DNA of 37,699 nt from Rhodospirillaceae bacterium (GTDB lineage: Bacteria; Pseudomonadota; Alphaproteobacteria; Rhodospirillales; UBA2165), in NCBI GenBank assembly GCA_002687515.1, contig NZAK01000075.1, positions 1 through 37,699 on the forward strand, written 5' to 3'. Below the pieces are notes generated by a model. The model searched no databases. It was not told where the DNA came from and saw nothing but the letters and a program-made list of their open reading frames with translations. The translations under genes and the position numbers were made by a program. Below are positions 4,249-6,007 of this stretch, piece after piece. Every line of letters begins with the position of its first letter. Within the stretch, counting starts at the first letter, position 1.

Positions 4249-5661
4249 ATGCCATTACCCGACGGGACCATCGAGAAGCTGAAATCGATTGCCGGCGCGG
4301 GTGCGGTGCTGACCGAGGCGCCGGACCTGGCCCCCTATGTGCGCGAGGAACGCGGGCTGATGGAGAGCACCTGCGATGCCGTGGTGCGCCCGGGCAGCGC
4401 CGAGGCAACGGCCGAAGTGGTCAAGCTGTGCGCCGGCACAAAAGTGCCGATTGTCGCCATCGGCGGCAACACCGGCCTGGTCGGCGGCGGCGTCGCCGAG
4501 GGCGGCGTCATCATCTCGACCGAACGGCTGAACCGGATCATCGAGATCGACGCCCTCAATCACACGATGACCGTCGAAGCCGGCTGCATCCTGGCCGATA
4601 TCCAAGCGGCCGCCGAAAACGAAAACTGCCTGTTCCCGCTCAGCCTCGGCGCCGAGGGCAGCTGCCGCATCGGCGGTAACCTGGCGACCAATGCCGGCGG
4701 CGTCGGCGTACTCAGATACGGCAATACGCGCGATCTGGTCCTTGGGCTAGAGGTGGTGCTTGCCGACGGCCGCATCTGGAGCGGCATGAGCGCGCTGCGC
4801 AAGGACAATACCGGATACGATTTGAAGCATCTGTTCATCGGCGCCGAGGGGACCCTCGGCATCATCACCAAGGCGGTGCTGAAACTCTATCCCCTGCCCC
4901 GTTCCAAGGTGACGGTGATGGCGGCGCTCGATCAGCTGGACAACATATTGGCGCTGTTCGACCGGGTGCGCGCAATGTGTGGCGACCGGCTGACGGCGTT
5001 CGAAATGATCGCCGAGATCGGGTTGGAGCTGGTTGTCCGGCATATTCCGGAAAGCCGCGATCCGTTTGCCGGGCGCCATCCCTGGTACGTCCTCATGGAG
5101 CTTACCTCGCCGCGCGCCAGCGACGATCTGCGCACCGAAATCGAGGCGGCGCTTGGGGCCGCCTTCGAGGCCGGCGAAATATCCGACGCCGTCTTCGCCG
5201 AGAGCGAGGCGCAAGCATTGGAGCTATGGAAACTGCGGGAAGAAATTCCAGACGCCCAGACCCGCGAAGGCGGCAGCATCAAGCACGACATATCGGTGCC
5301 GGTATCGAAAACCTGTGAATTCATGCGCCGGGCCAGCGAACTGGTCGAAGCCGAAATGCCGGGCATCCGGGTCTGCGCCTTCGGCCATATGGGTGACGGC
5401 AATATCCACTTCAACCTGACCCAGCCCGTGAGCTACGATAAACAGGCCTTTATCGACCGCTGGGCAGACTTCAACCGGATCGTGCATGACCTGGTGGTTG
5501 CGATGAACGGCAGCATCAGCGCCGAACACGGTATCGGATTGGTCAAGCGCGGCGAATTGCAACACTACGCGCCGGCGATTGATTTGGAATTGATGCGTTC
5601 CATCAAACGCGCGCTTGATCCAGACAACATCATGAATCCGGGAAAGATCTTCGATCTTTAG
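4249..5661 (+). CDS. FAD-linked 2-hydroxyacid dehydrogenase (GlcD / D-2-hydroxyglutarate dehydrogenase-like)
   Basis: A 470-aa protein of the vanillyl-alcohol-oxidase (PCMH) flavoprotein superfamily. The N-terminal FAD-binding domain has GGNTGLVGGG at 72-81, GGNLATNAGG near 145-155 and FIGAEGTLGIIT near 200. The C-terminal FAD-oxidase domain has GHMGDGNIHFN near 380, a metal/substrate site in this family, and ISAEHGIG near 422. Expected to oxidise a D-2-hydroxyacid (2-hydroxyglutarate, lactate or glycolate) with electrons passed to a carrier. The sequence alone does not choose between substrates; no glcE/glcF subunits are nearby, which makes a stand-alone D-2-hydroxyglutarate or D-lactate dehydrogenase more likely than a glycolate oxidase. 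Last gene of the operon; a terminator hairpin follows by 24 nt. Confidence 0.85.
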   Translation: MPLPDGTIEKLKSIAGAGAVLTEAPDLAPYVREERGLMESTCDAVVRPGSAEATAEVVKLCAGTKVPIVAIGGNTGLVGGGVAEGGVIISTERLNRIIEIDALNHTMTVEAGCILADIQAAAENENCLFPLSLGAEGSCRIGGNLATNAGGVGVLRYGNTRDLVLGLEVVLADGRIWSGMSALRKDNTGYDLKHLFIGAEGTLGIITKAVLKLYPLPRSKVTVMAALDQLDNILALFDRVRAMCGDRLTAFEMIAEIGLELVVRHIPESRDPFAGRHPWYVLMELTSPRASDDLRTEIEAALGAAFEAGEISDAVFAESEAQALELWKLREEIPDAQTREGGSIKHDISVPVSKTCEFMRRASELVEAEMPGIRVCAFGHMGDGNIHFNLTQPVSYDKQAFIDRWADFNRIVHDLVVAMNGSISAEHGIGLVKRGELQHYAPAIDLELMRSIKRALDPDNIMNPGKIFDL

Positions 5662-5684
5662 CGCATTGTCCAATAAAAATGTTA

Positions 5685-5708
5685 GCCGGGCTCCTTTCGG
5701 AGCCCGGC
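5685..5708. terminator. 10-bp perfect hairpin terminator, possibly bidirectional
   Basis: Arms 5685-5694 and 5699-5708 are perfectly complementary over 10 bp with a 4-nt loop (TTTC on +, GAAA on -). On + the tail is AAGTTT, which would end the upstream operon 24 nt past its stop. On - the hairpin is followed by TAACA and then a five-T run (complement of 5674-5678), so it may equally end a minus-strand transcript coming from the hairpin cluster at 5742-5840. Neither T-tract is ideal. Confidence 0.7.
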
Positions 5709-5741
5709 AAGTTTAACAGGGAGGCTTCACGTCTAAGAATT

Positions 5742-5840
5742 GGTCCGTTGGGTGGTGTCGGGGGAAACGGACCGTCGGTCCTGGGGTGTCGCCGGACCGA
5801 ACCAATCACCGGGGGAGTGATTGCATTCCTATGTGGAATG
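5742..5840 (-). ncRNA. candidate small RNA: four tandem perfect-stem hairpins with C-rich loops (strand uncertain)
   Basis: Four hairpins follow one another with short spacers. Arms are 5742-5749/5766-5773 (8 bp), 5775-5781/5794-5800 (7 bp), 5804-5809/5817-5822 (6 bp) and 5824-5829/5835-5840 (6 bp), all exactly complementary. Three loops are G-rich on +, that is C-rich on -: the minus loops read TCCCCCGACACCACCC, GGCGACACCCCA and TCCCCCG. On the minus strand the cluster would run straight into the hairpin at 5685-5708. C-rich loops in serial hairpins recall known anti-Shine-Dalgarno-like small RNAs (for example the alphaproteobacterial 'cuckoo' type), but the exact CCUCCUCCC motif is absent. 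No clear promoter is seen on either strand. The structure is seen in the sequence; the RNA identity and strand are inferred. Confidence 0.4.
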
Positions 5841-5894
5841 GGAAACATCTTAAACACGCTGTGTTAACGGCGTATGTCGTTTGTTGAATAATTT

Positions 5895-5920
5895 GTAACA
5901 ATGGGTAACGAGCTGGTAAC
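5895..5920 (+). promoter_or_regulatory. three GTAAC direct repeats phased by one helical turn
   Basis: GTAAC occurs at 5895-5899, 5905-5909 and 5916-5920, so successive starts are 10 and 11 bp apart on the same strand, ending 88 nt before the acyl-CoA dehydrogenase ATG. Direct repeats with this phasing are typical of binding sites for OmpR/PhoB-family response regulators. I cannot assign a regulator and see no convincing -35/-10 pair to place a promoter. Confidence 0.3.
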
Positions 5921-6007
5921 TTGCCGAAAGGCTTAAATTTTGCTGTTTTTAGCCGAATTAGCATCAAGGAGCGTTTTGATCGCCCGCCGGCGATCCGAAA
6001 ATTAGTC

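Follow-up and report, generated by a model that had tools for sequence, protein, structure and literature searches.

A predicted minus-strand small RNA with four hairpins and an anti-Shine-Dalgarno linker in an uncultured Rhodospirillales bacterium

What is encoded in the gap at positions 5662-6007 of a 37,699-nucleotide stretch of DNA (the window, meaning the whole stretch analysed) from an uncultured Rhodospirillales bacterium? The gap separates two plus-strand genes, encoding an FAD-oxidase and an acyl-CoA dehydrogenase. A first-pass annotation, made from the sequence alone, had placed a candidate minus-strand sRNA here, between two plus-strand units and with no credible protein frame. Both flanking genes do lie on the plus strand, no credible protein frame overlaps the element, and a 6-codon frame following hairpin H1 is, on reading the sequences, unconserved in relatives. 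An sRNA is predicted at 5674..5842 because of a fold z of -5.4, a conserved block of 89-91% identity and six syntenic orthologues, and the minus strand of the gap very probably encodes a regulatory RNA of about 166 nt. The features discussed below are as follows.

4249-5661, plus strand: FAD-oxidase gene
from ATG 6008, plus strand: acyl-CoA dehydrogenase gene
5674..5842, minus strand: predicted sRNA of ~166 nt, starting near 5840 and ending within the T-run at 5679..5675
5824..5840, minus strand: hairpin H1, CATTCC-ACATA-GGAATG, 6 bp, loop ACAUA; compensatory change on both sides in 4 of 6 pairs
5803..5823, minus strand: hairpin H2, CAATCAC-TCCCCCG-GTGATTG, 7 bp, loop UCCCCCG; 5 of 7 pairs compensatory
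5775..5800, minus strand: hairpin H3, TCGGTCC-GGCGACACCCCA-GGACCGA, 7 bp, GACACC in the loop; 6 of 6 common pairs compensatory
5742..5773, minus strand: hairpin H4, GGTCCGTT-TCCCCCGACACCACCC-AACGGACC, 8 bp, loop UCCCCCGACACCACCC; 7 of 7 common pairs compensatory
5711..5734, minus strand: unpaired core linker GACGUGAAGCCUCCCUGUUAAACU
5715..5724, minus strand: anti-Shine-Dalgarno seed CCUCCCUGUU, within the linker, between H4 and the terminator
5675..5708, minus strand: intrinsic terminator with a 10-bp stem, GAAA loop and T-run
5847..5852, minus strand: likely -10 element TAAGAT; orthologues read TATGAT, TAGTAT and TATATT at the equivalent position
5895..5909, minus strand: direct repeat GTTACCCATTGTTAC with a 10-bp period, candidate OmpR-family response-regulator site

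Four perfect hairpins within 99 nt had been described at the outset, together with a CGACACC common to two loops, here those of H3 and H4. The description stands except for the stem lengths, given as 8, 7, 6 and 6 bp, which are 8, 7, 7 and 6 bp; the H3 stem extends to 9 bp if a bulged A is allowed. Among 7520 stepped 100-nt windows, four non-overlapping perfect hairpins with stems of ≥6 bp were present in one only, that of the present element, and in none of 5000 dinucleotide shuffles. Over 172 nt, the folding z was -5.4 for the minus strand as compared with -2.4 for the plus strand.

The element occupies one gene junction in six genomes of one family, antisense between the FAD-oxidase and acyl-CoA dehydrogenase genes. 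A congeneric relative (G001; JABHAA010000129.1, Rhodospirillaceae bacterium SI036_bin45) has it at the same junction, a second genus (G010; JABMOP010000564.1) keeps it, and three further orthologues in genus g4 (G004, G020, G022) were found by reading the family's matching gene junction. Identity to G001 peaks precisely on the RNA: the hairpins, linker and terminator are 89-91% identical, the two flanking genes 72-73%, and the remainder of the gap, including the interval that separates the RNA from the start of the acyl-CoA dehydrogenase gene, 57-63%. The linker in genus g4 reads AACUCCCAGACGUAAA(G/A)CCUCCCUGUAAA, and a linker-variant pattern, itself narrow, retrieved only the G001 and G010 records across 84,980 species genomes.

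A helix-by-helix comparison of the six orthologues showed compensatory changes on both sides in 22 of 26 common pairs, against 12.4 in shuffles, a count inflated by the fact that the hand-aligned arms were chosen as pairing ones. Pairing is retained in 156/156 cells, a result matched by 0/500 shuffles, and sliding the partner arm by 1-3 columns lowers pairing to 24-44%. Since hand-picked arms inflate the pair count, alignment-free folding serves as an independent and unbiased check, and four consecutive hairpins were recovered in 6/6 orthologues; a six-sequence MAFFT alignment, not being structure-aware, was left out of pair counting. Specifically, the H4 arm turns over from GGUCCGUU to AAAUUCAUCAU, and CAAUCAC of the H2 arm is replaced by UGAUCAC or CGUUACC, yet the H2 loop remains UCCCCCG in five of six orthologues (UCCCUC in G010) and a CYCCCGA-like core persists in the H4 loop. 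The H1 and H3 loops are unconserved, and the H3 CGACACC core is lost in genus g4. The first-pass annotation had proposed compensatory stem changes with conserved C-rich loops as a supporting test; the stem changes were observed, and conservation of C-rich loops was observed for H2 and H4 and not for H1 and H3. Together these sequence comparisons establish that the structure is under selection. In whole-RNA folds of the genus g4 orthologues, the H1 segment AUAGGGA is able to base-pair with UCCCUGU of the seed (L177:1330-1494, L178:1257-1424, L183:2279-2443), which could possibly represent a self-inhibited or switching form.

The strand is indicated by the terminator. The 10-bp GAAA-loop hairpin previously noted is present at 5708..5685 of the minus strand, followed by the five-T run, TTTTT at 5679..5675. 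Of 75 unique homologous copies, 67 have a T-run after the stem on the minus-equivalent strand and none has one on the opposite strand; given this polarity of 67 versus 0, the minus strand, initially an inference, is settled. The reading of the region as a minus-strand sRNA thus draws support both from the compensatory changes among orthologues and from the terminator polarity of homologues. The T-run of the window copy begins 5 nt past the stem and is weaker than those of canonical copies. Upstream, the repeat GTTAC-N5-GTTAC is retained in G001 and has degenerated in G010; it resembles OmpR-family sites in its period and is a candidate site for a regulator. CenR was considered in this role and rejected, as the CenR motif TGA-N8-TGA finds no match.

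The most conserved complement to ribosome-binding sites, a feature absent from the first-pass annotation, is the single-stranded linker sequence CCUCCCUGUU, located outside the hairpin loops; CCUCCC of the linker is 0.8-0.96 unpaired. BLAST recovers linker GACGUGAAGCCUCCCUGUUAAACU and terminator from 126 of the order's 317 genomes, a count that pools full and near-identical cores. The seed end varies among window-type orthologues (UGUU, UGUA, UAUU), and therefore the full 10-bp seed pairing is not kept in all of them.

These data place the element in a multi-copy sibling family, that of GACGUGAAGCCUCCCUGUU, defined by a 24-nt core and then a GC-rich terminator and T-run. The window copy has an identical core at 5734..5711 and its terminator at 5708..5675, and scores 82.2 bits with covariance model R1, which was built from 42 copies, captured no base pairs beyond those of the terminator and served as a sequence profile. 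Of 385 genomes sampled across the class, 192 contain a match to R1, an upper estimate because R1 scores also reward the terminator; the class loci printed do show the core itself. Within its own genome, R1 ranks a canonical copy (C69, 119.9 bits) above the window copy (C72) and a third form (C46, 64.7 bits), with weaker copies on C15 and C63. Canonical copies consist of ACGUCUCCCAGACGUGAAGCCUCCCUGUUAAACU, terminator and T-run, and have an ACGUC-UCCCA-GACGU hairpin before the seed. This weak hairpin preceding the core has been lost in the window copy, which reads AAUUCUUAGACGU, and the genus g4 orthologues keep AACUCCCAGACGU.

Several observations concern the siblings themselves. The sibling sRNA genes of the genome, at G000:C69:15967-16087 (L002, L076), G000:C46:5193-5322 (L003) and G000:C15:60825-60879 (L131), have in common a CUCCCUGUU seed and terminator and differ in their 5' hairpins. 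In one genus, canonical copies form tandem pairs ~280-300 nt apart (L011, L045, L047, L049), like AbcR1/AbcR2. The hairpin preceding the core ranges from a short GGGUC-UUCG-GACCC to long C-rich loops (L034, L018, L019), and some canonical copies carry long hairpins with CCUCCCU-type loops upstream of the core (L017, L026); judging from these sequences, loop arrays may have had more than one origin. In plasmid records, the window form was not found and the only copy was a canonical-like one in Tistrella mobilis.

With respect to promoters, the sequence GCAT-N3-TG-N3-T corresponds to the VtlR/LsrB box published for abcR1 (PMC7486931, PMC8844928). This box occurs ≤230 nt upstream of 24 of 63 canonical copies; shuffled sequences yield 0.87 and the opposite strand yields 4. 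The 63 copies are related, however, and so do not represent independent samples. Its presence upstream of many canonical copies ties the family to the AbcR1 circuit; an LsrB box was looked for upstream of the window copy and is absent. LsrB/VtlR-type boxes lie 110-220 nt upstream of the core (L005, L008, L002, L045 and others), often within an ATGC...GCAT palindrome.

At the Rfam gathering cut-off, no match was obtained for the window, 14 loci of the order or 20 loci of the class, and it follows that annotation pipelines relying on Rfam would miss the family. The nearest models are SorX (RF02784; 17.9 bits against a cut-off of 46.6) and suhB (RF00519; 13.9 against 41), and RF00519 has no match in the own genome at E ≤ 0.001. 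The canonical sibling scores higher (30.9 for suhB, 28.5 for SorX), still below the cut-offs. The SorX match (E 0.019 in a 101-base search) aligns exactly over CCUCCCUGUU and the terminator: SorX/SorY of Rhodobacter (RF02784, RF02651) have the identical 10-nt seed CCUCCCUGUU and then a GCCGGGC terminator, whereas the SorX model is without a four-hairpin array. SorX is released from an mRNA 3' UTR by RNase E. In a literature search with sequence strings, the 20 matches listed out of 398 were all unrelated.

Comparison with characterized RNAs reveals both similarities and differences. Like the element, AbcR1/AbcR2 (alpha-r15) of the Rhizobiales have anti-Shine-Dalgarno seeds in unpaired regions and paralogous copies; their main targets are solute-binding-protein mRNAs, as are those predicted here, and their LsrB/VtlR promoter box is also found upstream of canonical siblings, unlike the window copy. 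AbcR seeds, however, read CUCCUCCC and UUCCCCUC (PMC8844928) where GCCUCCCUGUU is found here, neither motif being present in the seed or loops of the element, and the window copy has four extra hairpins. AbcR RNAs repress transporter mRNAs through seed pairing, a trait represented here by complementarity. The alpha-r8 RNAs (MmgR and Caulobacter SisA-D; RF00519 suhB) likewise have an unpaired CCUCCCU-type core before an intrinsic terminator and several siblings with unrelated promoters (for SisA-D, PMC12559287), but their core is UUUCCUCCCU as opposed to GCCUCCCUGUU, the element reading AAGCCUCCCUGUU. The alpha-r14/NfeR1 and cuckoo RNAs resemble the element in their serial hairpins, C-rich loops and hypervariable stems, the last evident here in the pairs changed on both sides; they differ in that one anti-Shine-Dalgarno motif occupies every loop (for alpha-r14, PMC7143759), while H1 and H3 here are not C-rich or are unconserved, the best-conserved seed is not part of any loop, and no Rfam match exists. 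As the element lacks a defining feature of each, it is a variant of the alphaproteobacterial anti-Shine-Dalgarno RNAs and not a member of the AbcR, SisA or NfeR1 family, and by analogy a candidate for working as they do.

Complementarity to start regions is apparent from the genomes themselves. The seed CCUCCCUGUU is exactly complementary to AACAGGGAGG, which occurs at 7 sites in the own genome (reversed control: 0), 3 of them the sRNA genes themselves; three of the four non-self sites lie 4-8 nt before an ATG, and the genes so led encode a short-chain dehydrogenase and two solute-binding proteins, one PhnD-like and one of the SBP_bac_5 type. In G001 and G010, 5 of 9 non-self sites are at a start codon, leading two SBP_bac_5 proteins, two luciferase-like monooxygenases and one sulfotransferase. 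Pooled over the three genomes, 8 of 13 non-self sites are at start codons and 4 of the 8 genes encode solute-binding proteins, compared with 0 of 17 led by a generic AAAGGAGA site, these being small gene sets in which the SBP_bac_5 genes may share ancestry. A relaxed set, CAGGGAGG-N2-9-ATG, adds one ABC permease and several enzymes. ViennaRNA duplexes of the linker reach -20 to -29 kcal/mol with predicted targets versus -8 to -15 for generic sites; these values refer to the linker only, full-RNA duplexes having been discarded since they ignore the RNA's own structure.

A mechanism may be proposed from these findings. Several sibling RNAs in this genome have one 3' module in common, an unpaired CCUCCCUGUU seed leading directly into the terminator hairpin. 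Pairing of the seed with AGGGAGG-type Shine-Dalgarno sequences would most likely block ribosome binding, as in the precedents of AbcR1/2 and NfeR1 (PMC8844928, PMC10746234) and SisA-D (PMC12559287), and repression probably involves Hfq, the gene for which is present. Its predicted targets are transcripts encoding ABC-transporter solute-binding proteins, together with those of some metabolic enzymes. The GACGUG part could add pairs toward the start-codon side, while the four 5' hairpins may shield the 5' end and display their C-rich loops (UCCCCCG, CYCCCGA) as additional contacts to G-rich sites.

An alternative, which we regard as unlikely yet the most serious of those considered, is that the loops and not the linker are the main seeds, as in a cuckoo/alpha-r14-like RNA whose repeated C-rich loops redundantly capture ribosome-binding sites. 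The stems are indeed hypervariable around a near-invariant H2 loop and a retained H4 core, much as alpha-r14 RNAs combine hypervariable stems with a motif in all loops (PMC7143759); set against this are the unconserved H1 and H3 loops, weak loop-target pairing (-6 to -15, versus -20 or stronger for the linker) and the far wider conservation of the linker. Loop sequence kept amid stem turnover is also the signature of a protein-binding array, and the C-rich loops might titrate an RNA-binding protein, but with no known candidate protein here and an adjacent anti-Shine-Dalgarno linker already offering a simpler function, a decoy is improbable.

Two further readings deny a minus-strand RNA altogether, and both were rejected. 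That the structure is a terminator or leader of the flanking plus-strand genes gains something from the plus strand also folding (z -2.4) and from a 10-bp hairpin that may stop FAD-oxidase read-through; it appears very improbable given that the minus strand folds better in 6/6 orthologues (z -3.3 to -8.6 versus -1.8 to -4.5), that homologues at unrelated loci have a T-run on the minus-equivalent strand only, and that identity falls to 57-63% before the acyl-CoA dehydrogenase start. Least probable of all, to the point of being negligible, is a mobile DNA repeat or a set of chance inverted repeats: the terminator hairpin motif does recur in many genomes, but the complete array of four hairpins is single-copy in the own genome, each relative has it at a single syntenic site, no shuffle reached four hairpins, and compensatory stem changes contradict both.

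Taken together, the best explanation for the entire element, and one we hold with considerable confidence, is a trans-acting minus-strand sRNA gene, read from its own promoter and ending at an intrinsic terminator, that would repress through its seed. More tentatively, and with doubt prevailing, the element may belong to a class-wide, uncatalogued family whose ultraconserved core GACGUGAAGCCUCCCUGUU complements the Shine-Dalgarno sequence and the start-codon side, the window paralogue, controlled by a response regulator, having freed GACGUG via the loss of one hairpin arm and gained a conserved C-rich loop array that evolves separately as a second set of contacts. To judge from complementarity, this large group of alphaproteobacterial RNAs likely silences genes for nutrient uptake, among others, by masking the ribosome-binding sites. 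Full rebuilding of stems while loop motifs stay constitutes a natural experiment on which parts of an RNA face selection. The anti-Shine-Dalgarno RNAs of the α-proteobacteria studied so far (AbcR, NfeR1, MmgR/SisA, SorX) come from Rhizobiales, Caulobacter and Rhodobacter, and the element points to an apparent shared family in Rhodospirillales and other orders, its 24-nt core kept nearly letter for letter.
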